From: Verrucomicrobiota bacterium
GTDB taxonomy: Bacteria > Verrucomicrobiota > Verrucomicrobiia > Limisphaerales > JACQFS01
Reading direction: 5' to 3'
NCBI GenBank assembly: GCA_016199935.1
Contig: JACQFS010000007.1
Location: forward strand, 1 to 34,297
Length of the DNA stretch: 34,297 nucleotides
Shown: positions 10,366-32,579 of the stretch, in pieces
How positions within the stretch are numbered: the first letter of the stretch is position 1
How the letters are laid out: every line of letters starts with the position of its first letter
Translations under genes and position numbers: made by a program
Notes under the pieces: model-generated
What the model saw: the letters and a program-made list of their open reading frames with translations, nothing else
Told to the model about the DNA's origin: nothing
The model's database searches: none

Positions 10366-10375
10366 CATTCTTTCC

Positions 10376-13552: not shown

Positions 13553-13567
13553 GAAAATCGGTGCGCC

Positions 13568-14263: not shown

Positions 14264-14266
14264 GAT

Positions 14267-15415
14267 TCAATCCGTCTTGGAGGTTTCGATGAGTTTGACC
14301 TCGACCGTCTGGCCGGGTTTGATTTGCGTGCGGCTGCCAATCATCACGAGTTCGCCTTCCGCCACGCCCTTGACGATTTCGAGCTTTGCGGGCGTCTCGA
14401 CGCCGAGCGTCACCGCGCGCTCCTCGATTTTCTTGTCCGCCGTCACCACGAAAATGCTCGCGCCCTTCGCGTCGCGCGCCACAGCCTCGACCGGCACCAC
14501 GAGCGCGCTGTCCTTCTTGTCGAGCTTGAGCACCACGGTTGCATACACGCCGGGGATGAGCGCGAGGTCGGCATTCGCTAAATCCACCTCCGCCTCCATC
14601 GTGCGCGTGGCCGTCTCGACCTTGCGCGAAAAGCGCGCGACGCCGCCGGCCAAAGTCTTTCCCGCCGACGGAATGCGAATCTCCACCGCATCGCCCACCT
14701 TCACGCGCGCGACGAACGACAAAGAAATTGGGAATACCACGCGCAGCCTGTCGTTCTGCGACAGGCGCACCAGCGGCACCGCGCTCGAACTCGTCCCCGC
14801 TTGGATGAGCGCCCCGACATTCACGTAGCGCTTCGTCACCACGCCCGCGAACGGCGCGGTGATGCGCGTGTAGTCGAGCATCGTCCGGTATTTGCTCACG
14901 TTGGCCTTCGCCTCCGCGCGCGCCGCCTCAGCCGTGAGGTCGCGCGCCTGCGCGATGTCGAGGTCCTGCTGCGAGATGAGGCCGCGTTGCGAATCCGCCG
15001 CCGTCTTGAGCCGCGCGAAGGACTGATGCGCCTCTTCGGCAGCCGCCTGACTACGCCGCTCCGCGGCGAGCGCGTGGTCCAGCTCGGCCTTGAGTTCGGG
15101 AATCTCCAGCGTGCCGATGGCCTGCCCGGCCTCCACGCGGTCGCCCGCGTCCACGTTCAGCCTGTCGAGGAAGCCGGCGACCTTCGCGTGCAGGTCAATC
15201 TCCTGAAACGGCCGCAGCTCCGCGTCGAACGTGACCGACTGAGCCAGTTCGCCGCGCGCGACTTTGACCACGGCAACCGTTGGGGAACTTGCCAGCGTGT
15301 CGGCGGCGGAAGCGGCCGGGGAGAATTGCCCGTGGCTCAAGCCAAAAATGATTCCCGCGAAAAGCGGCGCAAACAATTTCACTCGCAGCCGTGGGCGTAA
15401 CATGGACGTAACCAT
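14267..15415 (-). CDS. RND efflux periplasmic adaptor (HlyD/MFP family, system 2)
   Basis: Periplasmic membrane-fusion protein of 382 aa that bridges the RND pump to TolC. A signal/anchor segment (LFAPLFAGIIFGLSHGQFSPAASA) comes first. The biotinyl-lipoyl halves follow (FDAELRPFQEIDLHAKVAGFL near 60-85 and ITAPFAGVVTKRYVNVGALI near 190-210), flanking a helical hairpin (about 110-185), then beta-barrel and membrane-proximal domains. AAGG-like GAAGG lies 7 nt before the ATG at 15415; an in-frame ATG at 15403 is possible. It follows the first TolC gene after 66 bp and immediately precedes the RraA-like gene. An unusual CGTAAC triplicate overlaps the start codons. Confidence 0.92.
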   Translation of the reverse strand: MVTSMLRPRLRVKLFAPLFAGIIFGLSHGQFSPAASAADTLASSPTVAVVKVARGELAQSVTFDAELRPFQEIDLHAKVAGFLDRLNVDAGDRVEAGQAIGTLEIPELKAELDHALAAERRSQAAAEEAHQSFARLKTAADSQRGLISQQDLDIAQARDLTAEAARAEAKANVSKYRTMLDYTRITAPFAGVVTKRYVNVGALIQAGTSSSAVPLVRLSQNDRLRVVFPISLSFVARVKVGDAVEIRIPSAGKTLAGGVARFSRKVETATRTMEAEVDLANADLALIPGVYATVVLKLDKKDSALVVPVEAVARDAKGASIFVVTADKKIEERAVTLGVETPAKLEIVKGVAEGELVMIGSRTQIKPGQTVEVKLIETSKTD

Positions 15416-15423
15416 TTCGTAAC
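15396..15423 (+). promoter_or_regulatory. CGTAAC x3 direct repeat with 11-bp period over adaptor start
   Basis: CGTAAC occurs at 15396, 15407 and 15418, an exact 11-bp period, on the plus strand. It spans both candidate start codons of the adaptor gene. It fits the pattern (C/T)GT(C/A)AC of the two Pho-box-like sites, but runs in the opposite orientation relative to the gene it touches. It could be an operator for PhoB or another OmpR-type regulator, or a translational or coding coincidence. The function is open. Confidence 0.4.
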
Positions 15424-15481
15424 CTTCGGAGGACAGGAAGGAGAAACTTTCGGTTACGGAAAAGCCCGGCGCGTTCCGTCC

Positions 15482-16813
15482 TCACTTGACCTCGCCGACC
15501 GCGCGTTGGAGCGCGTATTGCGCCTGGTTGTGCGCGGCGAGCACGTTGAGGTAGTCGAGCCGCGCGCGCGTGAGTTCCTGCTCGGCCTGGATCGTCTCCA
15601 GCACCGCGCCCACGCCGAACTCCTTGCGCTCGCGCGAAAGTTTCATCAGCTCCGTCGCCGACGCGAGCGCGCGCTTCGCCATCGCGAGCTGGTCGCCGAG
15701 CGAATGCACGCGCGTGTGCGCCTCCACCACCTGCCGCATAACGTCCTGCTGCGCCTTCTCCAGTTCCAGCAGGCTCGTCTGGTGCCGCGACTCCGCCGCG
15801 CGCTCGCGGCCGCGGTCGAAAAGTCCGCCCGCACCGATTTTCCAACTGAGTCCGAGGAAATAATCCTGCGTGTCGCCAAAATTTCCGGTGCTGCCGTTGC
15901 GCCCGCCGCCCAAGCCGCCGAAGTAGGCGCTCGCGCCGATGGTGGGAATGAGCGGCCCCTGCGTCGCGCCCTTGCGCGAAGCCTCGGCGGACTGCGCGAG
16001 GAAATCGCCCTGCCGCAACTCGGGCCGCGACGCGAGCGCGCGCGACACGAGCGAGTCGAGCGCGGCGTTCCTGTCCACGAGCGTCAACGGGGCGAGTTCG
16101 GTTTCCTGCGGCGCGAGATCGGTCGCGGGCTTCAGCCGCAGCGTCTGCGCGAGCCGCGCGGCGGCCACGCGGCGCTGCTCCTCCGCCTGGCGCAGCAGCA
16201 TCCGGTTTTTTTCCACCTGCACCTCGGCGCGGAAGGCGTCGCCCTTGAACGCGATGCCCGCATCCACGGCGCGCTTCACCTGCCCGCTGTAATCCTCCGA
16301 GATGCGCACCGCCTCCGCCGCCGCGCCCGCCGCACCCGCCGCGCGCGCGAGTTCGAAATATCCCGCCGCCGCCAAGAAGACCGTCTCCTGCCGCTTGGCC
16401 TCGGCGCCTTCCTCAGCGGCCTTGGCGAGCTGTTTTGCGGCGAGCGTCTTGTAAATGGTGTCGCCCAAGTCCACCTGCGCCGTCAGCGCCGCGCCGATGC
16501 CGTAGGACTGCTTGCTCTCGGTGGTGATGTTGCCCGGCGTGTCCTGGATGTTCCCGTCGTGCCGCCGGTAGCCAATGCCGGGCGTGATCCACGGGAAATA
16601 ATTCATGCGCGCCTGCTCGTGCTGGGCCTTCGCCTCCTTCACGCGCTCGCGCGCGATGGCCACGTCGAGATTTTGCGCGCCCGCGAGTCGCAGCGCGGTG
16701 GGCAGGTCAATGGGCGACGCCGACGGAGCCGGCTCGGCCGCGCCGCAGATTCCGACGGCGGCAATCAGCGCCACGGCGACTGAACACTGAACACTGAACA
16801 CTGAATACTTCAC
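15482..16813 (-). CDS. TolC-family outer-membrane efflux protein (system 1)
   Basis: Outer-membrane channel of the first tripartite pump, 443 aa. It starts at a GTG (16813-16811) that overlaps the adaptor stop as GTGA, so the two are translationally coupled. The signal peptide is unusual: its n-region MKYSVFSVQCSV is encoded entirely by five heptanucleotide repeats, followed by AVALIAAVGICGAAE. The body has two OEP repeats with long helices (IDLPTALRLAGAQNLDVAIAR; LDSLVSRALASRPELRQGDF) and beta strands (YFPWITPGIGYRR; LIPTIGASAYFGG). It ends ALQRAVGEVK. The length is normal. It is followed after 66 bp by the adaptor of system 2. Confidence 0.92.
   Translation of the reverse strand: MKYSVFSVQCSVAVALIAAVGICGAAEPAPSASPIDLPTALRLAGAQNLDVAIARERVKEAKAQHEQARMNYFPWITPGIGYRRHDGNIQDTPGNITTESKQSYGIGAALTAQVDLGDTIYKTLAAKQLAKAAEEGAEAKRQETVFLAAAGYFELARAAGAAGAAAEAVRISEDYSGQVKRAVDAGIAFKGDAFRAEVQVEKNRMLLRQAEEQRRVAAARLAQTLRLKPATDLAPQETELAPLTLVDRNAALDSLVSRALASRPELRQGDFLAQSAEASRKGATQGPLIPTIGASAYFGGLGGGRNGSTGNFGDTQDYFLGLSWKIGAGGLFDRGRERAAESRHQTSLLELEKAQQDVMRQVVEAHTRVHSLGDQLAMAKRALASATELMKLSRERKEFGVGAVLETIQAEQELTRARLDYLNVLAAHNQAQYALQRAVGEVK
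16779..16813. repeat. Heptamer array encoding the TolC signal-peptide n-region
   Basis: Five 7-nt units read ACTGAAC, ACTGAAC, ACTGAAC, ACTGAAT, ACTTCAC on the plus strand, ending exactly at the GTG start codon of the outer-membrane protein gene. Because 7 is not a multiple of 3, each unit is read in a different frame, producing MKYSVFSVQCSV. It belongs to the same repeat style as the arrays at 2396, 30533, 33275 and 33798. Confidence 0.88.
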
Positions 16814-17868
16814 TTCCCCTCCGTCGCGTTGATCGCCGCATCCGGGGCGAGCGTGAGTTTGCCGACGAGGATCACCGCCTCGCCGCCTTTGAGCCCATCG
16901 AGCACCTCCACCTTCGCGCCATCGTTGAAACCGATCTTGATCGCGATCTTCTTTGCCTTGCCCCCGTCGGCGATGAAGGCGAAGGCGTTCACCTTTTCCA
17001 TCACGAGCGCTTCGACGGGGATCGTCAGCGCGTCGGTGTGCTTCTCCACGCCGACTTTCACCGTGGCATACATGCCGGGGCGCAGCTCCAGCTTCGGGTT
17101 CGGCAGGTCGGCTTCCACGAGCATTGTCTTGGTTGCGTCGTCGAGCGCGTAGGCGAGGCGGGTTACACTGCCTTCAAAGGGAGGCCGGCCGGGCAGGCCT
17201 TCAACGCTCACTTTCACCGGCTGGCCCTTCGCGACGAGCGGCGCTTCGAGTTCCGTCACCGGCACCTGCACGCGCACGGTGTTGAAGTCGGCGATGGTGA
17301 CGACGGCTGCGTTCTGCGCCGCGCTGCCGCTGGTAGCGGCGGGGATGAACGCGCCCGCATCCACAAATCGCGCAGTCACCACGCCGGCGAAGGGCGCGGT
17401 GAGCTTCGCGTAACGCAGCAGCGTCTCAGTGCGCTCCAGATTCGCCTTCGCGATTTCCGATTTGCCCTTCGCGTCGTCAACCGACTGCGGCGTGACGAGA
17501 TCGGGTGCCTTCTTCTGCGCCGCGGTGATTCGTTTGTTGTCGGCGTCCGCGACCCTCGCCTCGGCCTTGAACTTCGCGAGGTCGGCGAGCAGCTCCGGCA
17601 CTTCGATTTCGCCAAGCGCCTGGCCGGCGGTGACGGTGTCGCCCTTGTCCACGGCGATGCTTTTCAAATAGCCCGGCACCTTCGCGTAGAGCGTCGCCTG
17701 CTGGTTGGCGCGGATGCTGCCGGGCAGCGTGACGTAGCGGATGATTTCGCCGCGCGCGGGGCGGGTGACTTTGACTTCCACGGGTGCGGCGGCAAACGAC
17801 AGGGTGACGATGCCGAACAGCAACGCGCCCGCCGTCTTCATCCCGATGAACCTGGTGCAACTTTTCAT
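16810..17868 (-). CDS. RND efflux periplasmic adaptor (HlyD/MFP family, system 1)
   Basis: Periplasmic adaptor of 352 aa. The signal peptide begins MKSCTRFIGMKTAGALLFG and ends near FAAAPVE. The lipoyl halves are LPGSIRANQQATLYAKVPGY and LTAPFAGVVTARFVDAGAFI, with a short helical hairpin between them (LADLAKFKAEARVADADN). Next come a beta-barrel (VRVQVPVTELEAPLVAKGQ) and the membrane-proximal domain. The frame is open to 18021, but those residues overlap the RND gene and look non-coding; the ATG at 17868 has AAAGG just upstream and lies 13 bp after the RND stop. Its stop overlaps the TolC GTG. The second in-frame ATG (codon 10) is an alternative start. Confidence 0.92.
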   Translation of the reverse strand: MKSCTRFIGMKTAGALLFGIVTLSFAAAPVEVKVTRPARGEIIRYVTLPGSIRANQQATLYAKVPGYLKSIAVDKGDTVTAGQALGEIEVPELLADLAKFKAEARVADADNKRITAAQKKAPDLVTPQSVDDAKGKSEIAKANLERTETLLRYAKLTAPFAGVVTARFVDAGAFIPAATSGSAAQNAAVVTIADFNTVRVQVPVTELEAPLVAKGQPVKVSVEGLPGRPPFEGSVTRLAYALDDATKTMLVEADLPNPKLELRPGMYATVKVGVEKHTDALTIPVEALVMEKVNAFAFIADGGKAKKIAIKIGFNDGAKVEVLDGLKGGEAVILVGKLTLAPDAAINATEGK

Positions 17869-17881
17869 AAAGCCTTTCTGA

Positions 17882-20800
17882 CTATTTTGCTTCACCGACG
17901 AAATACGTGCTCGCCGGGTCTTCCGGGTCGAGCGAGGGCGAGCGGACTTTGCGGCTCGCGAGCATTGCGAACACGGCGGGCAGCACGAACAACGTCGCCA
18001 CCGTCGCGAGCGCGAGGCCACCCACGACGGCGCGGCCGAGCGGTGCGGTCTGGTCGCCGCCTTCGCCGAGGCCGAGCGCGAGCGGCATCATGCCGGCGAT
18101 CATCGCGCAGCTCGTCATCAAGATTGGGCGCAGTCGCGAGCGCGCGCCTTCGATGGCGGCTGCTTTCACGTCCACGCCACCGGCGGGCGAGACGCCCGCG
18201 CTCCGCGCCTTCTCGGCGAAGGTCACCAACAGAATCGCGTTCGCCACGGCCACACCAACGGCCATGATGGCGCCCATTGCGGACTGAATGTTCAACGTCG
18301 TGTGCGTGAGCCAGAGCATCAGCACCACGCCGGCGAGCACGGCGGGCACGGTGGAGATGACGGCGAAGGCGAGCCGCAGTGATTGGAAATTCGCCGCGAG
18401 CATCAGGAAGATGACGATGACGGCGATGACGAGGCCGGAGCGGAAACCCTCGAGCAGTTGGTTCATCGTGGTGGCCTGGCCGCGCACATCCACGCGCGTC
18501 TTGGCGGGCCAGAGTTTGTTGTTGGAGATTTCCTCGATGGCCGCGATGTCGCGCAGCACTTCGCCGAGGCTCGCGCCGTGAATATTCGCGGTGATGCTCA
18601 CCACGCGCGCCATGTTGTAACGCTCGTATAACCCCACCGCGCTGCCGGGCGTGACGCTCGCCACGTTGCGGAGCAGAATATTTTTCCCGCCACTCGACGT
18701 GACGGGGACGTTCTTCACGTCGTCGAGCGACTTGGTCTGCGCCTGCGGAATTTGAATCTGCAAATTGTAGCTCACGCCGGACGCGGGGTCGGCCCAGTAG
18801 TTCGGCACGGTGAAGCGGCTCGACGTGGTGGCCGCGACGAGCGAGCGCGTCACGTCGCCCATCTTCACGCCGAGCAGGCCGGCGCGCTCGCGGTTCACGT
18901 TTACGTCCACGGTGGGGAAGTCGAGCGACTGCGCGAAGTGCACGTCGCGCAGCGCGGGAATTTTTTTCAACTGCTCGTAAATCTTGTCCGCGTGCTCCTT
19001 GTTCACCGCGAGCGCCGGGCCGCTGACGGCGACCTCGATGGGCGTGGGCGAGCCGAAGCTCATCACGCGGCTCACAATGTCGCTCGGCTCGAAGGACACG
19101 CGCACGTCGGGCAGCTCGGCGGCGAAGACGGCGCGGAGTTTTTCCTTGAGCGCGGAAACTTTCACCGGCGCGTGCGGCTTGAGTTGGATGGAAAGGTGCG
19201 CTTCCTCCGGCCCGCCGTTCCAGAGGTGGATGAGGTTGATGGGATAATTCGCCGCGTGGACGCCGACGAGGCCCATCGTGATGGCGATGTTGTCCGCGCC
19301 GGCCTCGCGCTTGATGAGGTTGAGGGCCTTGAGCGCGACTTCCTCAGTGTTCTCGACCTTCGTGCCGCTGGGCGCGCGCAGGCGCACGGCGAACTGGCCG
19401 GAGTCCACCGTCGGGAAAATCTCGGTGCCGAGTTTTTTGCCGAAGAACCAGACGACGCCGAGTGAGGCGACGAGATAGACCAGCACGAGCAGCCAGCGCG
19501 CGGCCACGACGCCGCGGAGCAGCGAGGCGTAGGCGGACTGAAGTGTGCCGATGAAGCCGGGGTCGTGGATGGGGAGCGCAGCCGCCCCGGCTGCATCCGT
19601 CGGCGCCTCGCCGACGGAACCACCCGATGCGTCCGGCGAGGGCGCCGGACGCTGCACGCGAGGCGCGTGCGCTCCCCGCAAAAACCACACGGAGAGTATC
19701 GGCACCAGCGTGCTCGACAGGATGAACGACGCGACCATCGAGAAGCCCACCGCCAGCGCGAGCGGGACGAACAGTGACTTGGCCGCGCCGACCATGAAGA
19801 ACGCCGGGATGAACACCGCCAGCACGCAGAGCATCGCGAGCAAGCGCGGCAGCGCCGTCTCGCGCGTGGCGTCGAGCGCGGCGCGGGCCAGCGAGGCGCC
19901 GCGCGCGAGGTGTGCGTGGATGTTCTCCACCGCCACCGTCGCCTCGTCCACGAGGATGCCGACGGCGAGGGCGAGGCCGCCAAGCGTCATGAGGTTGATG
20001 TTCTGTCCGCTCACCCACAGCGCGAACGTCGCGGCGAGCAGAGAGATGGGGATGTTGATGACGACGATGAACGCGCTGCGCCAGTCGCGCAGGAACAGCA
20101 GCACCATCAACCCCGTGAGCAACGCGCCGATGCCGCCCTCCTTCACGAGGTCGTTGATGGAGCGCGTGACGACGGGCGACTGGTCGAACTCGTAGGTGAT
20201 TTTGACGTCGCCCATGGTTGCCGGCACGGCGGTCATGAAGCGCGGCAGATTCTTCTTCACCAACTCCACGACCGTGAGCGTGCTCGCGTCGGCGCGCTTG
20301 GTGACGGGCATGTAAACGGTGCGGCGGCCGTTCACCAGCGCGTAGCTCGTCACGATGTCGCTGCCGTCGTCCACGGTCGCAACGTCGCGCACGAACACTG
20401 CGCCGTTGGCATTCACGCGCAGCGGCACGCCTTCGAGGTCCTTGATGTTCTTCACCACGGCGTTCACCGGCACGATGGGATACTTGTCGCCGAGGTTCAT
20501 GTTGCCCGACGGGCTGATGAGGTTCGCCTGCGAGATGGCGGCGACGATTTCATCCGGCGAAAAATTGTAGGCGCGCATCCGGTCGGACTTCACGTTGATG
20601 AGGATGGTGCGCGCGCCGCCGCCGAAGGGCGGCGGGGCCGAGACGCCGGGCAGCGTGGCGAAGAGCGGGCGGACCATGTTGAGCGCCACGTCCTGCATCT
20701 GCGCGACGGTCCGGTTCGTGTTCTCGCTGGAGAAAACGAGTTGGCCGACGGCGACGCTGCCGGCATCGAAGCGCATGATGAACGGCCCCGGCGTGCCCAG

Positions 20801-21160
20801 CGGCATGAAGGCGCGCGCGCGGTTCACGTAGGCCACGGTCTCGGCCATCGCGGCGCTCATGTCGGTGCCGGGATGGAACTGGAGCTTCATCAGGCTCGCG
20901 CCCTGGATGGACTTGGACTCCACGTGCTCGATGCCGGTGATGTAGAGGAAATGGTATTCGTAATAGTAGGTGAGGTAGCCCTCCATCTGCGCGGGGTCCA
21001 TGCCGCCGAAGGGTTGCGCGACGTAGATGGTCGGCACGTTGAGCGGCGGGAAAACGTCGCGCGTCATGCGCTGCAACGCGACCCACGCGCCGAGGCACAC
21101 GGCGAGCACGAGCACGACGACCGTCAGCGGACGGCGGAGGGAGGTGTTGAGGATGGTCAT
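17882..21160 (-). CDS. RND efflux transporter permease (HAE1-like, system 1) with repeat-derived insertions
   Basis: Inner-membrane RND pump of 1092 aa, the first gene of the seven-gene efflux array. The N-terminal helix is about 11-28; the periplasmic domain contains PFGGMDPAQMEGYLTYYYEY. TM4 reads AVGILVDEATVAVENIHAHL, with D405-E406 in place of the AcrB Asp-Asp pair. Two cytoplasmic loops hold foreign-looking sequence. Residues about 496-530 (Ala/Pro/Gly-rich, PAPSPDASGGSVGEAPTD) are encoded by a four-hairpin repeat. Residues about 981-990 (SAGVSPAGG) are encoded by a fragment of the same repeat type. Both keep the frame and fall between membrane helices, so the pump may stay functional. 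The start is the ATG at 21160. Confidence 0.92.
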   Translation of the reverse strand: MTILNTSLRRPLTVVVLVLAVCLGAWVALQRMTRDVFPPLNVPTIYVAQPFGGMDPAQMEGYLTYYYEYHFLYITGIEHVESKSIQGASLMKLQFHPGTDMSAAMAETVAYVNRARAFMPLGTPGPFIMRFDAGSVAVGQLVFSSENTNRTVAQMQDVALNMVRPLFATLPGVSAPPPFGGGARTILINVKSDRMRAYNFSPDEIVAAISQANLISPSGNMNLGDKYPIVPVNAVVKNIKDLEGVPLRVNANGAVFVRDVATVDDGSDIVTSYALVNGRRTVYMPVTKRADASTLTVVELVKKNLPRFMTAVPATMGDVKITYEFDQSPVVTRSINDLVKEGGIGALLTGLMVLLFLRDWRSAFIVVINIPISLLAATFALWVSGQNINLMTLGGLALAVGILVDEATVAVENIHAHLARGASLARAALDATRETALPRLLAMLCVLAVFIPAFFMVGAAKSLFVPLALAVGFSMVASFILSSTLVPILSVWFLRGAHAPRVQRPAPSPDASGGSVGEAPTDAAGAAALPIHDPGFIGTLQSAYASLLRGVVAARWLLVLVYLVASLGVVWFFGKKLGTEIFPTVDSGQFAVRLRAPSGTKVENTEEVALKALNLIKREAGADNIAITMGLVGVHAANYPINLIHLWNGGPEEAHLSIQLKPHAPVKVSALKEKLRAVFAAELPDVRVSFEPSDIVSRVMSFGSPTPIEVAVSGPALAVNKEHADKIYEQLKKIPALRDVHFAQSLDFPTVDVNVNRERAGLLGVKMGDVTRSLVAATTSSRFTVPNYWADPASGVSYNLQIQIPQAQTKSLDDVKNVPVTSSGGKNILLRNVASVTPGSAVGLYERYNMARVVSITANIHGASLGEVLRDIAAIEEISNNKLWPAKTRVDVRGQATTMNQLLEGFRSGLVIAVIVIFLMLAANFQSLRLAFAVISTVPAVLAGVVLMLWLTHTTLNIQSAMGAIMAVGVAVANAILLVTFAEKARSAGVSPAGGVDVKAAAIEGARSRLRPILMTSCAMIAGMMPLALGLGEGGDQTAPLGRAVVGGLALATVATLFVLPAVFAMLASRKVRSPSLDPEDPASTYFVGEAK
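18183..18204. repeat. Fragment of hairpin repeat inside RND permease gene
   Basis: On the coding strand GGAGC is followed by the stem GCGGGCG-TCT-CGCCCGC, the same layout as the left end of the four-hairpin element at 19571-19677 (GGAGC, then a 7-bp stem with a 3-nt loop). It encodes SAGVSPAG in the cytoplasmic TM10-TM11 loop, where relatives usually have a short charged linker. Confidence 0.6.
19571..19677. repeat. 107-bp four-hairpin repeat inside RND permease gene
   Basis: The terminal inverted repeats GGGGAGCGCA (19571-19580) and TGCGCTCCCC (19668-19677) enclose four consecutive perfect hairpins. Their stems are GCAGCCG (7 bp, loop CCC), CCGTCGGCG (9 bp, loop CCT), GCGTCCGGCG (10 bp, loop AGGG) and GCACGCG (7 bp, loop AGG). 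It is wholly within the coding frame of the pump, encoding about residues 496-530. This is a REP-like composite element, a different family from the other palindromes in the window. Confidence 0.88.
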
Positions 21161-23994: not shown

Positions 23995-24402
23995 GTGCTA
24001 GTGCTTGCGCCCGTGCGCCGGTTCAATGTCATTCTCGCCCCGCTGCTTGCGGTCCTGTGGCTGCCGATGACCTCGCATTGCCTGCTCGAGGACGCGGGCC
24101 TGATCCATCACGACAAATGCTGCGAGCAAGGCGACGGCACGGATGAACATGATCACGACGCAGCCGATGGTGCCTGTCAGATCGAGAAGGCGGGCTTTCA
24201 ACTTCCAAAGTTTCAGCGGGTGCTTGCTGAGGCGCTGCCTGATTTCCACTCGCCCCAAATAGCGCTGGATGAGCTGCTCCGGGTAGAAACCATTCCGCCG
24301 GACATTCTCACCTGCGCCGGCCCGCCTCCAACGCTCCGCGCCACCTGGCAGTTTTCATCCCGCTCGGCACTCCCGCCGCGCGCTCCTTCATTCGTTTCGT
24401 AA
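23995..24402 (+). CDS. Small Cys/His-rich exported protein upstream of metal efflux genes
   Basis: Function not recognised. The product is 135 aa or less. An N-terminal hydrophobic stretch FNVILAPLLAVLWLPM is followed by SHCLLED and a Cys/His/Asp cluster (HHDKCCEQGDGTDEHDHD), the kind of sequence that binds metal ions. The C-terminal half is Pro/Leu-rich. It lies about 100 bp upstream of the CzcC/CzcA-type genes, so a periplasmic metal-handling role is plausible. I recall similar short exported proteins (TSHC followed by CC) ahead of Czc operons in Verrucomicrobia, but cannot verify this here. The start is uncertain: GTG codons at 23995, 24001 and 24013 are all possible, the last giving the neatest signal peptide. 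Confidence 0.62.
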   Translation: MLVLAPVRRFNVILAPLLAVLWLPMTSHCLLEDAGLIHHDKCCEQGDGTDEHDHDAADGACQIEKAGFQLPKFQRVLAEALPDFHSPQIALDELLRVETIPPDILTCAGPPPTLRATWQFSSRSALPPRAPSFVS

Positions 24403-24424: not shown

Positions 24425-24503
24425 TTTCCCCTTTCGTCGGACGCCTGTCGCGCCCGCGTTTCCAACCTTAACCGGCGGTGTGTGCCGCCAAACTTTGATG
24501 CCC

Positions 24504-25775
24504 ATGAAAATTTTGTTTTGCCCGCTGCTTGTCGGTTCGTTGCTGGTGTCCGGCTTCTTCGCTGCCCCCGCGTGTGCGGCGGCGGAGCCGGAATTGTTGT
24601 CCCTCGCCGCGCTCGTCGAGGACACGCTCGCCAAAAATCCCGAGCTGAAATTCTACGAGGCGGAAATCGCCGCCGCCAAAGGCGAACGGCGCGGCGCGGG
24701 TGCCCTGCCCAATCCAGAACTGACCGTCGGCGGCGGCTACAAGGGCGTCCGCAGCAGCGCCGGCCAGTTGCTTGGCGAAGGCGCGGCGTGGTCGGTGTCG
24801 CTCGCGCAGCCCATCGAGTGGCCGGGCCGCCTCTCGTTGCGCAAGGCGATTGCGGACAAGCAGGTCGCGCTCGCCGAACTTGGCCTCGCGCAGTTTCGTT
24901 ACACGCTGAGGCAGCGCACGGGCGCGCTTGGCTACGCTGTGCTTGCGGCGCAGCAGAAGGCCGCCGCCGCAAATGAAATCGCCACGCGCTTCAACACGCT
25001 CCGCGACGTGCTCGTGCAGCGCGACCCCGCGGGCGTCACGCCGCAACTTGAGATCGGCATCCTGGAAGGCACCGCGCTCACGCAACAGCGACGCGCGAGC
25101 GATGCCGCCATTGAGGAACTCAAGGCGCTCGCTGCATTGAATCAACTGCGCGGCGTTCCGGCGCACACTCCGCTCAAGGTGGCCGGCGAACTTCCGCCGT
25201 TCCCCGCCGCGCGTCCGCTCGCGGAACTGCTCGACGCCGCGCGCACGAACAACTTTGACCTCCGCGCCCGCGCCGCCGAGTTGGAGAAGCAGGGCTTCAA
25301 GGTGGACCTCGCCCGCAACGAGCGGAAGCCCGCCATCACCGTCGCACCCTACTTCAGCCGCGAACACGCCGGCGACCGCGATACGCAGGCGGGCTTGAGC
25401 CTCACCATCCCGCTCGGATTCAACTCCGCCGCGAAGGGCCGCGCGGAGGCCGAGCGCGCGCGGCTCACCCAGGCCGAGGCGTCGCTGGGCACGGCGCAGC
25501 GCGAAGTGGAGCGCAAGGTCGTCGAGGCCGCGCTGCAATACGAGGTCAAGCGCGCCGAACTCGCGCGCTGGGACGGCGACCCCGCCGTGAAGTTCCGCGC
25601 CAACGCCGAACTGGCCGACCGCCATTACCGCCTCGGCGCGGTCCCCATCGCCACCTACCTCGAAGCGCAGAAGACATTTCTCGAAGTGCTCGAAACCCTC
25701 ACCGACACGCGCCGCGAGGCGTGGGAGGCGTGGCTGGAATTGGCAACGCTCACCGGCCTGAACTCCAAGGATTGA
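24504..25775 (+). CDS. CzcC/TolC-family outer-membrane factor of heavy-metal RND system
   Basis: Outer-membrane channel of 423 aa. The signal peptide is MKILFCPLLVGSLLVSGFF to PACAAAE. Two OEP repeats follow: LSLAALVEDTLAKNPELKFYEAEIAAAKG with GAGALPNPELTVGGGY, and LDAARTNNFDLRARAAELEKQ with KPAITVAPYFSREHAG and GLSLTIPLGF. The NPEL motif and the Cys at the end of the signal region resemble CzcC/CusC. It is placed directly before the CzcA-type pump (3 bp between stop and start), so the pair is co-translated. The start is the ATG 24504; ATG 24498 and GTG 24480 are in-frame alternatives. A small hairpin GGCGG-CCGCC lies just upstream. Confidence 0.9.
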   Translation: MKILFCPLLVGSLLVSGFFAAPACAAAEPELLSLAALVEDTLAKNPELKFYEAEIAAAKGERRGAGALPNPELTVGGGYKGVRSSAGQLLGEGAAWSVSLAQPIEWPGRLSLRKAIADKQVALAELGLAQFRYTLRQRTGALGYAVLAAQQKAAAANEIATRFNTLRDVLVQRDPAGVTPQLEIGILEGTALTQQRRASDAAIEELKALAALNQLRGVPAHTPLKVAGELPPFPAARPLAELLDAARTNNFDLRARAAELEKQGFKVDLARNERKPAITVAPYFSREHAGDRDTQAGLSLTIPLGFNSAAKGRAEAERARLTQAEASLGTAQREVERKVVEAALQYEVKRAELARWDGDPAVKFRANAELADRHYRLGAVPIATYLEAQKTFLEVLETLTDTRREAWEAWLELATLTGLNSKD

Positions 25776-25778
25776 GCC

Positions 25779-26408
25779 ATGATTTCCGCCATCCTCGAAT
25801 TCTCGCTGCGCCAGCGCGCCATTGTTTTGCTCGGCGCGGTTGCCTTGCTCGGCGTTGGTCTCTGGTCGGCCGTTCACCTTCCCATTGACGCGGTGCCGGA
25901 CATCACCGGCGTGCAGGTGCAGATCAACACCGAGGTCACCGCGCTGGCGGCGGAGGAATCGGAAAAGCTGATCACGCAAGTCATCGAGCGCGAGATGGCC
26001 GGACTGCCCGGCATGGAAGAAATGCGCTCGCTCACGAAGTTCGGCCTGTCGCAGGTGACGCTCAATTTCACGGAAGACACCGACATTTTTCGCGCGCGCC
26101 AGCTAGTCGCCGAGCGTTTGCAAGGCGTGCTGGAACAACTTCCGACCGGCGCGTTGCCGAAGCTCGCGCCGATCAGCACGGGCCTCGGCGAAATCTTCTA
26201 CTACAACGTCCAATACAAGCCCGACGCGCGGCACAAGCCGGCGAGCGAGCTGGATCAGCTCATCGAGTTGAGCGAGATCCAGGAATACACCATCAAGCCG
26301 CTGCTCCGCACGGTGCCAGGAATCGCGGAGGTCAACAGCACTGGTGGCTACGAGAAGCAATACGTCGAAGCCGGAGGCGCTCATGGCGGTGAACATGACG
26401 TTCAGTGA
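25779..26408 (+). CDS. czcA: CzcA-type heavy-metal RND pump, N-terminal part (frameshifted gene)
   Basis: The first 195 or so residues are a normal CzcA/CusA N-terminus: membrane helix IVLLGAVALLGVGLWSAVHL, then PIDAVPDITGVQVQINTEVTAL, GLSQVTLNFTEDTDIFRARQ and VPGIAEVNSTGGYEKQY. After GGYEKQYVEA the frame turns into unrelated sequence and stops at 26408. The homologous continuation is in another frame from about 26367. A 2-nt loss (or 1-nt gain) near 26363-26370 explains it. The gene starts 3 bp after the outer-membrane factor. Expressed alone, this fragment could not form a pump. Confidence 0.88.
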   Translation: MISAILEFSLRQRAIVLLGAVALLGVGLWSAVHLPIDAVPDITGVQVQINTEVTALAAEESEKLITQVIEREMAGLPGMEEMRSLTKFGLSQVTLNFTEDTDIFRARQLVAERLQGVLEQLPTGALPKLAPISTGLGEIFYYNVQYKPDARHKPASELDQLIELSEIQEYTIKPLLRTVPGIAEVNSTGGYEKQYVEAGGAHGGEHDVQ

Positions 26409-28914
26409 GCTGGCGGAACTCGTCGCGCAGAACGTCGAGAACGCCGGCGGCGGCATCATCAGCCGCGGCGGCCAGCAGCTCACCATTCGCGCCGTCAGCC
26501 GGGTCAACAACACGGAGGAAATTGGGAACCTGCCCTTGAAGTTTGGTTCGGGCGTGAAGCCGCTGCTCGTCAAGGACGTCGCGGAAGTGAAGCTCGGCAC
26601 GAAGTTCCGCACGGGCGCGGCCACGTTGAGCGGCAAGGAAACGGTCATCGGCACCACCATGATGCTCGCGGGACAGAACAGCCGCGAAGTCGGGCAGCGC
26701 GTCAAGGCGCGCATCAAGGAAATCCAGTCGAAACTCCCCGACGGCGTGGAACTCGTCATCCAATACGACCGCTCACTGCTGATTGATCGCACGATTCAAA
26801 CGGTGGGGAAAAATTTGTTTGAAGGCGCGATTCTGGTCGTGGTGATTTTGCTGTTGCTCCTCGGCAACTGGCGCGCGGCGCTGATTGTCGCGCTGGCCAT
26901 TCCGCTTTCATTTCTATTCGCGCTCGTGGGCATGCAGCGTTTCGGCATCTCCGGGAACTTGATGAGTCTGGGGGCGATTGATTTCGGCCTCATCATTGAT
27001 GGCGCGGTCGTCATCGTGGAAAATATCGTGCGGCAGATGGCCCAGCGTCAGCATCACCTTGGACGGGCGTTGACCGACGAGGAACGCGCGCAGGTCGTTC
27101 TCTCCGCGAGCAAACAGGTTGGTTCGCCGATGTTCTTCGGCGTGCTCATCATTACGGTGGTTTACATTCCCATCCTCGCGCTCACGGGCATCGAGGGGAA
27201 AATGTTTCACCCGATGGCGCTGGCCGTGATGCTCGCGCTGGCTGGCGCGCTGCTGTTGACCATCACCCTGATGCCGGTGCTCTGTTCGTTTCTGCTGCGC
27301 GGAAAAATCTCCGAGGAAGACAACTTCCTGATGCGCCTGGCCAAGAAACTTTACGCGCCGGCCCTCAACGTCTCGCTGCAGCATCGCTGGCCGGTCGTCC
27401 TTGGTGCCGTCGCGCTTTTGGCCGTGACGGTCTGGCCCGCCAGGCGGTTGGGCGCGGAGTTCATTCCGAAACTCGACGAAGGTTCCATCACCGCCATGCT
27501 CTACAAGCCCGTCGGCATGAGCATGGAGGAATCGCTCCGCACCGACATCGAGGTGGAGAACAAGCTGCTCAAGGAGTTCCCGGAATTGACGCGCATCTTC
27601 TCGCGCATCGGCACGAGTGAAATCGCCTCTGACCCCATGCCGCCGAACGAGAGCGACGTTTACATTTTCTACAAGCCGCTCGCCGACTGGCCGAAGACGC
27701 CGGGGCGTCCGACGAGCAAGGCCGCGTTGCGCGAGCAACTGGAGGCGTCGCTCAAGCAGGTCAACACCAACTACAGCATCCTCTTCGCGCAGCCCATCGA
27801 GATGCGCTTCAACGAAATGCTCGAAGGCACTAAAGCTGAGTTGTCGGTGAAGATTTTCGGCGACGACTACGACGTGCTCGAAAAACTCGCCGAACAAATC
27901 AAAGGCATCATCCAAAAAATGCCGGACACCGCGCAGGTGGAATACGAGACCGAAGGCCGCACGCCGCAATTGCAAATCAATGCGAAGCGCGACGTGCTCC
28001 AGAAATACGCGCTGCAAGCGGGCGAAGTGAACAAGGCCATCAACGCCGCGCTCGCCGGCCAGGCCGCGGGGAAAATCATCGAAGGCAACAAGCGGCGGTC
28101 CATCGTGGTTCGCATGCCCGAAGAGCTTCGCGCCGATGACGAACAGATTAAAAAACTGCCCGTGAGAGTGGGCGAGACCGGTCTCCTTCCGCTCGGACAA
28201 GTCGTCGAATTTCAAACGCTGAAAACCGTCGAGCCGATTCTGCGCGACGCCGGCCAGCGTCGGGCAGCCTTGATGGTGAATTTGAAAACGCGTGACATGG
28301 AAGGCTACGTCGGCCGGGCCGAGGCGCTAATCAACCAACAAGTGAAGCGGCCGGAAAATTACATCGTGGAATTCGGCGGCCAGTTCGAGCACTTGCAGGA
28401 GGCGCGCGCCCGGCTGTTTGTCGTCGTGCCGGCGACCCTGCTGCTGATTTTCGTTTTGGTTTTCATCTCGTTCGGCAGCGTGCGGCAGACGCTGATCATT
28501 TACACCGGCGTTCCACTGGCGGCGACCGGCGGCGTGTTTGGACTCTGGCTTTGCGGAATGCCCTTCAGCATTTCGGCGGCGGTCGGCTTCATCGCGTTGA
28601 GTGGCGTCGCCGTGCTCGATGGTCTCGTGATGCTCAGCTACTTCAATCAATTGCGCGAAGAGGGCAAGAGCGTCCGCGATGCGGTGGTCGAAGGTTCATT
28701 GACGAGATTGCGTCCCGTCCTGATGACCGCGCTCGTGGCGAGTTTTGGTTTCGTCCCGATGGCGCTCGCGACCGGCGCGGGCGCGGAAGTGCAAAAGCCG
28801 CTTGCCATCGTGGTGATCGGCGGCTTGATCAGTTCGATGTTTCTAAAACTGGTTTTGCTGCCGGTGCTTTACGAGTGGTTTGAAAAGAAACCCGCGCTGG
28901 CGCGCCCGACATGA
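26344..28914 (+). CDS. czcA: CzcA-type heavy-metal RND pump, C-terminal part (frameshifted gene)
   Basis: Continuation of the pump in a different frame; homology begins around KPEALMAVNMTFSELAELV. It keeps the HME-RND proton-relay signature GAIDFGLIIDGAVVIVEN (two Asp and one Glu), the segment GTSEIASDPMPPNESDVYIF, and the C-terminal block GFIALSGVAVLDGLVMLSYF and RLRPVLMTALVASFGFVPMALATG. These resemble Czc/Cnr-type (Zn/Co/Cd/Ni) rather than CusA-type pumps (family knowledge, moderate). Joined with the first part it would be about 1045 aa, normal. A Lys appears in the last membrane helix (SSMFLKLVLLP) where relatives usually have an uncharged residue. No adaptor (CzcB) gene is next to it. 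It is either a decaying gene, a frameshift-expressed one, or carries a sequencing error. Confidence 0.87.
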   Translation: MATRSNTSKPEALMAVNMTFSELAELVAQNVENAGGGIISRGGQQLTIRAVSRVNNTEEIGNLPLKFGSGVKPLLVKDVAEVKLGTKFRTGAATLSGKETVIGTTMMLAGQNSREVGQRVKARIKEIQSKLPDGVELVIQYDRSLLIDRTIQTVGKNLFEGAILVVVILLLLLGNWRAALIVALAIPLSFLFALVGMQRFGISGNLMSLGAIDFGLIIDGAVVIVENIVRQMAQRQHHLGRALTDEERAQVVLSASKQVGSPMFFGVLIITVVYIPILALTGIEGKMFHPMALAVMLALAGALLLTITLMPVLCSFLLRGKISEEDNFLMRLAKKLYAPALNVSLQHRWPVVLGAVALLAVTVWPARRLGAEFIPKLDEGSITAMLYKPVGMSMEESLRTDIEVENKLLKEFPELTRIFSRIGTSEIASDPMPPNESDVYIFYKPLADWPKTPGRPTSKAALREQLEASLKQVNTNYSILFAQPIEMRFNEMLEGTKAELSVKIFGDDYDVLEKLAEQIKGIIQKMPDTAQVEYETEGRTPQLQINAKRDVLQKYALQAGEVNKAINAALAGQAAGKIIEGNKRRSIVVRMPEELRADDEQIKKLPVRVGETGLLPLGQVVEFQTLKTVEPILRDAGQRRAALMVNLKTRDMEGYVGRAEALINQQVKRPENYIVEFGGQFEHLQEARARLFVVVPATLLLIFVLVFISFGSVRQTLIIYTGVPLAATGGVFGLWLCGMPFSISAAVGFIALSGVAVLDGLVMLSYFNQLREEGKSVRDAVVEGSLTRLRPVLMTALVASFGFVPMALATGAGAEVQKPLAIVVIGGLISSMFLKLVLLPVLYEWFEKKPALARPT

Positions 28915-29187: not shown

Positions 29188-29272
29188 CGGTCCCGGACTC
29201 GTCAAAGATGTTCGACTAACGGGCCGGACGGGTTCCGTGCTGGAATCGCGGGCGTATCAACCACCGCCCGCG

Positions 29273-29728
29273 ATGACCGCAACAACCGCCAAAACCACCC
29301 GCTTCCCGATGCCGGGGATGCGCTTTTGCCCGGCGGGGGCCGCGTTCTGCGTCAAAACGGCGGCTTTCCACTTCAAAACGGTTCCCCCCTTGGTCGCGGG
29401 GGCCGCCCCGGACGTTCCGGGGGCAGCGTTGCGCCTTCCGGGGGCTCCGATGGACGGCGCGGGTGCGGAGTTCCGGCTCGCGGGGTCGGGCCTTTTGGTC
29501 GCGGGGGCGGCGCTGCGACCGGCGGGGGCGGAGTTCCGGGGCGCGGGGGCACCGCTGGCGCGTCCGGGGTCAGCCCCCATTTTCTCCGGCGAAGCCCCCG
29601 TGAGGCGGAACGCGGCCACCGTTTCGTCCGGCGGCACGCCTCTGACAACCAGCGGCGCCCCCGCGACGGGGAGCGATGCGCCAAAAACCACGGGCGATTC
29701 CGCCCGCGCAACCGCCGCCCCGCCATGA
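29273..29728 (+). CDS. ORF of heptapeptide (21-nt) repeats, possible protein
   Basis: Not recognised. From the ATG 29273 (or ATG 29171, overlapping the XRE gene) the product is 151 aa and almost wholly made of a 7-residue period: PGAALRL, PGAPMDG, AGAEFRL, AGSGLLV, AGAALRP, AGAEFRG, AGAPLAR. No signal peptide or membrane helix is obvious. Its stop overlaps the next start as ATGA (29725-29728), which suggests translational coupling and favours this strand. Caution: the opposite strand (29691-29257) is also open and 7-residue periodic, because the DNA repeat is 21 bp, so coding is not proven. A hairpin CGCGGGCG/CGCCCGCG (29247-29272) ends at the base before the ATG. Confidence 0.4.
   Translation: MTATTAKTTRFPMPGMRFCPAGAAFCVKTAAFHFKTVPPLVAGAAPDVPGAALRLPGAPMDGAGAEFRLAGSGLLVAGAALRPAGAEFRGAGAPLARPGSAPIFSGEAPVRRNAATVSSGGTPLTTSGAPATGSDAPKTTGDSARATAAPP
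29392..29580. repeat. Nine-unit 21-bp degenerate tandem repeat
   Basis: Units begin at 29392, 29413, 29434, 29455, 29476, 29497, 29518, 29539 and 29560. They share a core of nnTCGCGGGGGC or nnTCCGGGGGC followed by GCGTTGCG, GAGTTCCG or variants. Periodicity weakens but continues at the protein level on both sides (29310-29728). The unit length is a multiple of both 3 and 7. Confidence 0.75.
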
Positions 29729-30528
29729 ACTGGGACACCGGCACCTGGGACAGCGGCTTCTGGGATTCACCGCCGCCGCTCTCCGATTATTTTCTTCCCC
29801 AACACAAACCACACACACAGAGCAAACCTATGAAACGACAGGACTACTACCCCAGCCGCATCGGCGACCAGGTCAACTGGCTCGACAACTACTCGGACAA
29901 ACTCCCCATCCACGGCACCACGCTCGGCGTCCTCGCCGCCGATGTCACCGCCAGCGTGGCCGATGGCAAGTGGTGCAAATACGTGCTCGGCTCGTGGCTC
30001 ACCGCCGTGCGCGCCTTCTCGCCCTCGACCACCGACGCCGTGGATGACGTGCTCACCGGCGCGGGCGCGTCGGCCATCGTGCTGCCCACCTTCACCGGGC
30101 CGGCGCTGCCCGCGGGCGTGACTGCGCAGTTGCCCGGCGCGCTCGCGCGCATCTTCGCGCTCATCGCCAAGATGAAGCTCTCCGGCAATTACACCGAAGC
30201 CATCGGCACCGACCTCGGCATCGTGGGCCAGCAGGTGACGGAGAAAGCGACCCCGAAGTTCAACGCCACGCTGGAACAGGGCGCGGGCAGCCAGTCCGTG
30301 CGGCTGACCTTTTCCAAATACACGCACATGGGCGTGTATATCGAGGCGCGGCGCGGCACGGCGGCGTTCGACTTCCTCGCCATTGACACGGAGAGTCCCT
30401 ACCTCGACGACCGCCCGCTGCTCATCGCCGGCACGCCCGAAGTGCGCGAATACCGGATGCGCTTCTGGGACAAGGGCACGCCCAACGGCGACTGGACCGA
30501 CGTGGTGAAGGTGACGGTTTACCCGTAA
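29725..30528 (+). CDS. Hypothetical protein with WD-rich N-terminus and Ig/fn3-like C-terminus
   Basis: No certain family. From the ATG 29725 the product is 267 aa: a Trp/Asp-rich start MNWDTGTWDSGFWDSPPPL, a low-complexity linker, then MKRQDYYPSRIGDQVNWLDNYS (the alternative start, ATG 29830, gives 232 aa). The middle is helical (LGVLAADVTASVADGKWCKY; LARIFALIAKMKLSGNYTEAI). The C-terminal 90 residues look like a fibronectin-type beta domain (RLTFSKYTHMGVYIEARRG; EVREYRMRFWDKGTPNGDWTDVVKVTV). The ATGA overlap with the repeat ORF supports 29725, while the AT-richer leader before 29830 supports the shorter form. It is followed by the collagen-like gene and probably makes a structural or cell-surface-related product. 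Confidence 0.75.
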   Translation: MNWDTGTWDSGFWDSPPPLSDYFLPQHKPHTQSKPMKRQDYYPSRIGDQVNWLDNYSDKLPIHGTTLGVLAADVTASVADGKWCKYVLGSWLTAVRAFSPSTTDAVDDVLTGAGASAIVLPTFTGPALPAGVTAQLPGALARIFALIAKMKLSGNYTEAIGTDLGIVGQQVTEKATPKFNATLEQGAGSQSVRLTFSKYTHMGVYIEARRGTAAFDFLAIDTESPYLDDRPLLIAGTPEVREYRMRFWDKGTPNGDWTDVVKVTVYP

Positions 30529-30608: not shown

Positions 30609-30989
30609 ATGCCCTTCGATCCCTCCCTCCCCGCCGACGGCTCGCCGAATTCCTCGGCGGAAATGCGCGCGCAACTCATCGCGCTCCACGACGAAATCAC
30701 CACCATCCCCCAAGGCCCGCCCGGCAACGACGGTGCGCCCGGTCTGCCCGGTGACAAGGGCGACAAAGGCGACTCTGGTGACAAGGGTGACACCGGCGAC
30801 CAGGGCGTCCCCGGCCTCGCCGGCGAAGTGAGCACCGTGCAGTTGGACAACGCCATCGCCGGCGCGAGCAGCAACACCAACGCGGTGGCGACGCTGGACA
30901 CGAGCGGCTTCAGCGACCCGCCCACCCTTGCCGACCTGCTGGCCGTGGCGAACAAGCTCAACGAGTTCCTCACCACCGCGCGGCGGTGA
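30609..30989 (+). CDS. Collagen-like repeat protein
   Basis: A 126-aa protein. The N-terminal domain (MPFDPSLPADGSPNSSAEMR to LIALHDEITTI) resembles the short leader seen on phage-tail-fibre-associated and surface collagen-like proteins. A triple-helix-forming Gly-X-Y run follows (about 36-73: GPPGNDGAPGLPGDKG, then repeated GDKGD/GDTGD). The C-terminal helical part (STVQLDNAIAGASSNTNAVA; PPTLADLLAVANKLNEFL) probably trimerises it. There is no signal peptide. It follows the WD/fn3-like gene after 80 bp of heptamer repeats and probably belongs to the same cassette. The role is unknown; fibre or matrix component is a reasonable guess. Confidence 0.85.
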   Translation: MPFDPSLPADGSPNSSAEMRAQLIALHDEITTIPQGPPGNDGAPGLPGDKGDKGDSGDKGDTGDQGVPGLAGEVSTVQLDNAIAGASSNTNAVATLDTSGFSDPPTLADLLAVANKLNEFLTTARR

Positions 30990-31012: not shown

Positions 31013-31291
31013 TCAGGCGACGTAGCGCTCCAGCACCGTGAGGAAGGTGCGCAACTTGCGGCGGCTTTCCGCCGCGCTGGCCGCGTGCTCGATGCACTCG
31101 TGCAGGTGCGCGTGGATGAGCACATCGCCAAAGGACTTCAACGCGCTCCGCGCGGACACCACCTGCATCAGCACCTCGGGGCAGTCCACGTCGGATTCCA
31201 GCATCGTCTCGATGGCCTGGACCTGGCCGCGGATTTTGCGGAGCCGGGCGACCAGGGCGGTCTTCTCAGCGGGCGGATGGACGTGTTTCAT
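31013..31291 (-). CDS. CsoR/RcnR-family metal-sensing repressor
   Basis: A 92-aa all-helical repressor (DUF156 family) that releases DNA on metal binding. It starts at the ATG 31291 (MKHVHPPAEKTALVARLRKI), which trims 39 unlikely residues of open frame; RKIRGQVQAIETMLE is the family helix. The metal fingerprint is His3, Cys37, His62 and Cys66 (VDCPEV; HAHLHEC). RcnR has His at the last position, CsoR has Cys-His-Cys, and H-C-H-C is what I recall for nickel sensor InrS. Together with the divergent RcnA-type exporter this favours Ni or Co sensing, with Cu as the alternative. A G-tract operator lies between the two genes. Confidence 0.9.
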   Translation of the reverse strand: MKHVHPPAEKTALVARLRKIRGQVQAIETMLESDVDCPEVLMQVVSARSALKSFGDVLIHAHLHECIEHAASAAESRRKLRTFLTVLERYVA

Positions 31292-31337
31292 GGCGGAGTC
31301 ATAGCACGGGGAAGCGCCGCGCGCCAAGCGAATGCCG

Positions 31338-31367
31338 TTGACCCCTGAAGGGGGGTGGGGGTATATG
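31338..31367 (+). promoter_or_regulatory. Promoter with G-tract operator for the RcnA-type exporter
   Basis: TTGACC (31338-31343), an 18-bp spacer and TATATG (31362-31367) form a promoter. The spacer holds CCCTGAAGGGGGGTGGGGG, i.e. ACCCC/GGGGT arms and a long G-tract, matching the G-tract operator style of CsoR/RcnR repressors. The predicted transcription start coincides with the ATG at 31374, so the mRNA may be leaderless. Repression by the divergent regulator is inferred. Confidence 0.65.
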
Positions 31368-31373
31368 CCTCCG

Positions 31374-32579
31374 ATGACGAACTTCTCCGACCTGCTCGCG
31401 CAGGGCAACGCCTGGCTCTACCTCCCCGCCGCCGTCGCGCTCGGCGCGCTGCACGGATTGGAGCCGGGCCACAGCAAGACGATGATGGCCGCGTTCATCG
31501 TCGCCGTGCGCGGCACGGTGGGGCAGGCGGTGCTGCTCGGCGTGGCGGCGACACTCTCGCACACGGCGCTCATCTGGGCGCTGGCCTTCGTGGGGCTGCA
31601 TTACTCCGGCAAATTCGCCGCCGAGGATGTGGAGCCTTACTTGCAGGTGGCGACGGGCGTCATCGTCATCGGCCTCGCGCTGTGGATGCTCTGGCGCGTG
31701 CGGCGCGCGCAGGGCGGCGGCGGACACGGCCCGCACGGCGGGCCGTTGCTGCGGACGGCGGAGGGATTCGTCGAGGTGAGCGTGTTCGAGGACGGCGTGC
31801 CGCCGCGCTTCCGCCTTTATTTCTTCGACGAGGCCCGGCTGGCACAGGCGCCGCCCGTGGGTGCGGCGATCACCTGCGAAACGATTCGCGCAGGAGGGGA
31901 GGGAATGGGCGTGGAGCAGAACTTTCACTTCGAGGCCCACGGCGCGTATCTCGAAGCGACGGAGGAATTGCCGGAGCCGCACGAGTTCCACTTGGTGCTT
32001 CACCTGCGGCACGGCGGCGCGGTGGAGACTTGCGAGACGCGCTTTGTGGAGGAACACGACCACGCGCACGGCCACGATCATCACGGCGGGCACTCGCCCG
32101 ACCACGACGGGGGCCACGACCATCATGGCGGCCACTCACACGACCACGATGCCGGCCACGACCATGACGGCGGGCACACTCACTCGCACGATCTCGCCGA
32201 CGAGGACGCGCACTCGCGGGCACATGCGCGCGAGTGGCAGGAGCGCTTCGCGGGCCGCCCGGTGACGACGTGGCAGATTTTCCTCTTCGGTCTCACGGGC
32301 GGATTGATGCCGTGCCCGTCGGCGTTCGCGGTGCTGCTGGTGTGCTTGCAGTTGAAGCAATTCGCGCTCGGGTTCGCGCTGGTGCTGGCGTTCAGCGTGG
32401 GGCTGGCGCTGACGCTGGTGACAGTGGGCGCGCTGGCGGCGCTCTCGGTGAAGCACGCGACGCGGCGCTTCGCCGGGCTGCACAAGCTGGCGGCGCGGAT
32501 GCCCTACGCCAGCGCGGCGGTGATGCTCATCATCGGCGCGCTCGTGGCCATTCAGGGCGCACGCGCCATTTTGCACTGA
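31374..32579 (+). CDS. rcnA: RcnA-type nickel/cobalt exporter with inserted domain
   Basis: Inner-membrane Ni/Co efflux protein of 401 aa (E. coli RcnA is about 274). The start MTNFSDLLAQGNAWLYLP at the ATG 31374 matches RcnA and is preferred over ATGs at 31332 and 31365, which fall within the promoter. GALHGLEPGHSKTMMAAFIV (24-43) is the family signature. After the third helix (about 92-108) comes an extra soluble domain (about 130-225: EVSVFEDGVPPRFRLYFFD, EPHEFHLVLHLRHGG), which resembles an N-terminal domain I know from CzcB-type RND adaptors. A histidine-rich loop (228-273) has about 19 His in HDH/GGH repeats. The last helices begin TWQIFLFGLTGGLMPCPSAF. It is divergent from the CsoR/RcnR-type gene. 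Confidence 0.92.
   Translation: MTNFSDLLAQGNAWLYLPAAVALGALHGLEPGHSKTMMAAFIVAVRGTVGQAVLLGVAATLSHTALIWALAFVGLHYSGKFAAEDVEPYLQVATGVIVIGLALWMLWRVRRAQGGGGHGPHGGPLLRTAEGFVEVSVFEDGVPPRFRLYFFDEARLAQAPPVGAAITCETIRAGGEGMGVEQNFHFEAHGAYLEATEELPEPHEFHLVLHLRHGGAVETCETRFVEEHDHAHGHDHHGGHSPDHDGGHDHHGGHSHDHDAGHDHDGGHTHSHDLADEDAHSRAHAREWQERFAGRPVTTWQIFLFGLTGGLMPCPSAFAVLLVCLQLKQFALGFALVLAFSVGLALTLVTVGALAALSVKHATRRFAGLHKLAARMPYASAAVMLIIGALVAIQGARAILH

Follow-up and report, generated by a model that had tools for sequence, protein, structure and literature searches.

A combination of an RcnA-type exporter with a CzcB-like part is already known from MrdH in 2009: as relayed by a later paper (PMC3056050, citing Haritha 2009), MrdH of Pseudomonas putida is an RcnA/CzcB chimera that confers resistance to nickel, cadmium and zinc. 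The ncrABCY operons are induced by nickel and have as operator a GC-rich inverted repeat, to which the related regulator NcrB binds (PMC3046157). RcnA of Escherichia coli has six transmembrane helices (TMs) and a periplasmic C-terminal tail (PMC11589881). The exporter described here belongs to the known MrdH/NcrC kind. As in MrdH, a copy of which (L130, annotated mrdH, 100% identity) contains the same domain with 125 bits, a CzcB-like domain stands at the same place in RcnA, before the His-rich loop, and a CsoR/NreA-type regulator gene (mreA in the case of MrdH) adjoins. Unlike MrdH, the present copy falls in another clade of the domain (sister to LarC), has a longer His-rich loop, and is found near an outer-membrane efflux protein (OMF) and RND pump pair. 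NcrC is likewise a NicO exporter with the same insert (106 bits) and a CsoR-family regulator, NcrB, but it works with NcrA and NcrY and has a different gene neighbourhood. With E. coli RcnA our protein shares the transmembrane part, the GLEPGHSKTMMAAF motif, a His-rich cytoplasmic loop and RcnR-type regulation, whereas E. coli RcnA is without the insert: NF007454, the model of the E. coli type, spans 283 positions and the protein here 401 residues.

The window, namely the whole stretch of 34,297 nucleotides analysed from a contig of a Verrucomicrobiota bacterium, contains the following features relevant to this comparison; the last entry lies elsewhere in the same genome:

24480 to 25775, + strand: outer-membrane efflux protein (OMF) of the neighbouring RND system (PF02321, 2.1e-27)
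25779 to 28914, + strand: CusA/CzcA-family RND pump with a frameshift near 26.35 kb (26340-26410) and no adaptor beside it (TIGR00914 in two frames)
31013 to 31291, - strand: CsoR/RcnR-family metal-sensing repressor of 92 aa, divergent from rcnA (PF02583, 5e-23)
31341 to 31356, + strand: ACCCCTGAAGGGGGGT, candidate CsoR/RcnR-type operator between regulator and exporter (pattern match)
31374 to 32579, + strand: rcnA-type (MrdH-type) Ni/Co exporter gene, 401 aa (PF03824 and NF007454 above cut-off)
about 31725 to 32054, + strand: inserted beta-sandwich domain of ~105 residues, residues about 118-227, or 31731 to 32051 (residues about 120-226) when drawn more tightly (profile matches, fold prediction, full-length model)
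31974 to 31988, + strand: EPHEF motif with H203, the sole invariant His of the inserted domain (alignments)
32055 to 32190, + strand: His-rich loop, predicted disordered, with a 42-bp tandem repeat in three copies (full-length model, residues 228-278 with pLDDT below 50)
L082:1108-2904 (contig C215, own genome): domain-bearing LarC nickel insertase (PF01969, TIGR00299, NF052512)

The rcnA frame runs from the ATG at 31374 to the stop at 32577-32579, its start aligned with the MTxFxxLLQQG of relatives; a longer version starting at 31332 was rejected, as the proteins of relatives begin at that motif. The product matches NicO (PF03824, 6.6e-32, Pfam) and the NCBIfam RcnA model (NF007454, 349 bits, with the cut-off at 195), the latter in two stretches that skip the insert. 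A His-rich loop links its TM3 to TM4, and a Ni/Co-type CsoR/RcnR regulator is encoded nearby. By its sequence the protein is an exporter of Ni(II)/Co(II) belonging to the RcnA/MrdH type, presumably controlled by this CsoR/RcnR-type repressor. A CsoR/RcnR-type frame within 2.5 kb of rcnA recurs in 64 of 77 relatives. Between the repressor gene and rcnA stands ACCCCTGAAGGGG, the window's single match to the pattern ACCCCTNNAGGGG (0.01 expected); it resembles the GC-rich inverted repeat bound by NcrB (PMC3046157). Since operator-like G-tract repeats, sought with a loose pattern, precede only 18 of 73 other rcnA genes, we treat this element as a candidate operator only.

The inserted domain sits between TM3 and the His-rich loop. 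The sequence-only reading had proposed that a soluble beta-rich domain is added to RcnA before this loop, and the domain is real: the NF007454 match is split around it, and it is kept in all 80 of the 80 best relatives, mainly from Verrucomicrobiota and Pseudomonadota. The interval given for it (31761-32192) does overlap the domain, but it starts inside the domain and takes in the His-rich loop. Within RcnA, alignments show E139, P143, P144, R147, R172, E201-P202-H203 and F205 to be invariant or nearly so, and eight of these positions (E139, P144, R147, R172, E201, P202, H203 and F205, in window numbering) never vary across the copies in RcnA, LarC, DmeF and adaptors. Among them, Pro, Glu and Arg could be conserved for structural reasons. 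These eight residues, together with retention of the domain in two phyla and hundreds of plasmids, indicate that it is under constraint. Searched alone against Pfam, NCBIfam and the PDB sequences, the insert gave no match, so single-sequence look-ups would miss its link to CzcB. The profile search likewise placed no Pfam or NCBIfam model over the domain in the RcnA, LarC, DmeF, CDF or adaptor copies. A Pfam family for the CzcB N-terminus was discarded, having no match even with full adaptors.

That link, which had been proposed as a match to the N-terminal domain of CzcB-type adaptors, was borne out when the insert was compared with adaptor families by HMM, and similarity was found where its absence would have counted against the idea. 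An HMM built from RcnA copies only scores adaptors at 48-71 bits, LarC at 101-111, CDF transporters at 88-107 and DmeF at 95, against at most 13.3 bits for shuffled decoys (n=2860); conversely, an adaptor HMM scores the RcnA inserts at 41-78 bits, with decoys at most 10.5, and separate HMMs for each host class each detect all the other classes. In two relatives a domain-bearing CzcB-type adaptor, confirmed by HlyD_D23, lies about 5 kb from rcnA and is matched by the single window sequence (2.4e-12 and 6.8e-11). On this profile evidence the insert and the domain at the N-terminus of CzcB-type RND adaptors are homologues; both have the PHGG start and the E..PP.FR and EPHxF motifs. The adaptor copies differ in being periplasmic, in their fusion to lipoyl, hairpin and barrel domains, and in forming a separate clade (99/99); for those three HlyD domains, the window RcnA gave no HlyD family match in Pfam or NCBIfam.

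The suggestion of a portable module also fits the wider distribution, which covers RcnA/MrdH/NcrC, CDF, DmeF, RND adaptors and LarC. The proposed survey of RcnA proteins for the insertion found RcnA above cut-off in at least 17 of 398 Pseudomonadota genomes (prevalence counts here and below being lower bounds), with the match split around the domain in 8 of these 17 and continuous in 9. A further survey, centred on G632 (record titled Kuenenia), yielded these Pseudomonadota genomes again and contributed nothing more; the title Candidatus Kuenenia of CALQFM020000015.1 (L039), which likewise led to Pseudomonadota in a phylum search, looks mislabelled. A tblastn search with the domain returned 806 plasmid records, and the annotated plasmid matches among those listed are RcnA, NcrC, MrdH, DmeF or RND adaptors. 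CDF transporters of Pseudomonadota have one or two tandem N-terminal copies followed by a His-rich stretch (two copies in L165, L168, L169, L174 and L178; one in L164, L172, L177, L180, L183, L184, L186 and L188). In a DmeF, also from Pseudomonadota, the domain lies inside the His-rich loop; in RcnA, LarC and CDF it stands beside a His-rich stretch, and domain-bearing adaptors often have one too. The hosts seen are metal-handling families only (RcnA, NcrC, MrdH, DmeF, CDF, CzcB-type adaptors and LarC). Because the same uncatalogued domain thus recurs in metal pumps, pump adaptors and a nickel-inserting enzyme, it looks like a reusable metal-handling part.

LarC is the nickel insertase of the nickel-pincer cofactor, and the sole other copy of the domain in the window's own genome lies in a LarC, inside its His-rich stretch, in a gene adjoining larB. 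Relatives of this LarC occur in at least 213 of 245 genomes of the same order, at least 11 of them with the domain, across six families; those without it have the same His-rich stretch in the corresponding position. In a tree built from 111 copies of the domain (103 columns), whose deep branches are unsure, the adaptor copies form one clade, the CDF copies another (100/94) and the LarC copies a third (100/93). As its sister group the LarC clade has the RcnA copies from the window genome and L001 (100/90), not the other RcnA copies, and this well-supported fork suggests that exporter and insertase exchanged the domain within this bacterial group. For gain and loss of the domain in LarC, the core tree needs four changes, of which the starred branches force only one. 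Against the open papers covered by our literature search, the wider domain family appears to be new, most of all its occurrence in LarC together with the exporter–insertase exchange. The fullest form of this picture, in which one uncatalogued Ni/Co-handling domain is common to export (RcnA/MrdH/NcrC, DmeF, CDF, RND adaptors) and cofactor building (LarC), operates on either side of the inner membrane and has passed between exporter and insertase within one verrucomicrobial order, is one we put forward tentatively, as possible rather than probable.

AlphaFold2, run from 47 sequences, predicts the domain as a confident beta-sandwich (mean pLDDT 90.7), and the full-length model places it directly after the TM3 helix, with strands at residues 124-224 followed by disorder at residues 228-278. 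Among solved structures the predicted model is closest to CrdA (Z 11.0 and 10.9, CrdA Ag-bound; for Z 11.0, rmsd 2.8 over 100 residues at an identity of about 10%), a copper-binding part of the CzcBA-CrdB system of Helicobacter pylori (PMC9182242). The Cu-binding P19/FetP/FtrA proteins follow at Z 8.4-9.8, one structure with Ni, and most unrelated folds are below 8. The domain is predicted to share the beta-sandwich fold of the CrdA/P19 family. CrdA differs in taking copper through a Met-rich loop and no His, and this Met-rich copper site is absent from the window domain, which has a single Met. As to membrane side, the six TMs and periplasmic tail of E. coli RcnA imply that the TM3-TM4 loop, and with it the inserted domain, should by analogy be cytoplasmic. 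The WRVRR at the start of that loop in the window protein and the five positive charges of its TM5-TM6 loop agree with this.

We propose, as the most economical reading and one whose chances we judge to be evenly balanced, that the insert is an independently folding cytosolic metal-capture and loading domain of a widespread uncatalogued family, placed in a repressor-controlled Ni/Co exporter. The flexible His-rich segment would gather nickel or cobalt in the cytoplasm, and the domain, through the His of EPHxF and its conserved Glu and Arg, would bind or gate the ion and pass it to the membrane path; it might do the equivalent job on the cytosolic side in CDF and LarC and on the periplasmic side in CzcB-type adaptors. 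We infer metal binding by the domain, the direction of transfer and any coupling to an RND system; the loading role is drawn from the recurrence of the domain in metal proteins, its His-rich neighbours, its one invariant His and its CrdA/P19-like fold. The N-terminal region of CusB, which binds metal and hands it to the transporter (PMC4446572), offers an analogy in favour. Against this proposal stand the restriction to one invariant His, the absence of the Met ligands of CrdA, the fold identity of about 10%, and the fact that about half of the RcnAs (9 of 17), as well as E. coli RcnA, do without the domain.

Its main rival is that the domain is a docking or oligomerization module that holds a partner, either a cytosolic nickel chaperone or a second copy, near the transporter or LarC, with metal bound on the His-rich tail only. 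Many Ig-like folds are interaction modules, and the Ig-like fold of the domain, host proteins that already have His-rich tails, and conservation that peaks at E139, P144, R147, R172 and EPHxF and includes one invariant His only would all accord with such a role. Yet the hosts occupy two compartments and include an enzyme, so that no common partner is evident, and the proteins closest in fold, CrdA and P19, bind metal; we consider this rival unlikely, though it deserves weight. A third reading, in which the domain has no specific function and is a spacer or remnant that recombination among His-rich coding stretches has spread, is quite improbable. In its favour, every insertion site falls within or next to His-rich repeats, low-complexity DNA that recombines readily, and half of the RcnAs lack the domain; against it stand the eight residues invariant across the RcnA, LarC, DmeF and adaptor copies and the retention of the domain in two phyla and in hundreds of plasmids.

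If the picture of one Ni/Co-handling domain common to export and cofactor building is true, this would be a metal-binding unit that can be transferred between proteins, much as the HMA domain is among copper proteins. One small domain with a strict EPHxF recurs in at least four unrelated scaffolds, namely NicO exporters, CDF transporters, RND adaptors and a nickel-inserting enzyme. It would name, with a likely role, an unannotated part of many resistance proteins, including the plasmid-borne NcrC and RcnA, and it frames a testable question: whether the domain recognizes nickel or cobalt, and whether metal handling can be moved between proteins along with it.

The sequence-only reading had further pointed to an RND system without an adaptor gene 5 kb away. 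There is indeed no adaptor gene between or beside the OMF (24480-25775) and RND (25779-28914) genes of the window, but the end of the RND gene (28914) is 2.5 kb upstream of rcnA, and the gene is frameshifted, covering TIGR00914 profile positions 1-195 and 199-1039 in two frames; the frameshift may be a sequencing error or mark a true pseudogene. In L001 and L219 (genome G410) the OMF-RND pair is also adaptor-less, and the domain-bearing rcnA shares 4 bp with the end of the RND gene; L008 has a related adaptor-less pair near a domain-bearing rcnA. The RND proteins of these three loci are 74-82% identical to that of the window. A more distant RND (46%) with its own domain-bearing adaptor, followed by rcnA, is found in L003 and L006. 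The operon pairing supports a two-step export, in which RcnA would deliver nickel or cobalt to the periplasm and the OMF-RND system could finish its removal, and a functional link of RcnA to the adaptor-less pump is partly supported. A direct hand-over from the insert to the periplasmic pump, as had also been suggested, is unlikely, since the insert should face the cytoplasm and the CzcB-type domains are periplasmic. It is very improbable that the domain takes the place of the missing adaptor by linking RcnA with the adjacent OMF-RND system and handing metal over to it: the adaptor-less OMF-RND of one subfamily beside a domain-bearing rcnA in four genomes (window, L001, L219, L008), and a genome whose 13 HlyD_D23 adaptors, two of which the window encodes, all lack the domain and fall short of the CzcB/NccB cut-off, are outweighed by a loop that should be cytoplasmic and out of reach of the periplasmic part of the pump, by the want of adaptor hairpin, lipoyl and beta-barrel domains, by those 13 other adaptors themselves, and by the domain-bearing rcnA alongside a full adaptor in L003 and L006.

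Some further genes of this neighbourhood may be recorded. Three adaptor-less OMF-RND operons have, directly 5' of their OMF gene, a small frame with a hydrophobic N-terminus and a His/Asp-rich segment (window 23995-24402; L219:4365-4805; L001:2400-2855), the L219 copy matching that of the window at 37%. On the - strand of the window, 9082-21160 encodes two more RND systems together with HlyD-type adaptors and OMFs (RND genes 10376-13552 and 17882-21160). Between the RND gene and rcnA, 29254-30528 encodes a pentapeptide-like repetitive GAxFRxAGxxLxxAGAxL stretch, and the short frame at 30609-30989 encodes collagen-like Gly-X-Y repeats (GPPGNDGAPGLPGDKGDKGDSGDKGDTGDQGVPG).
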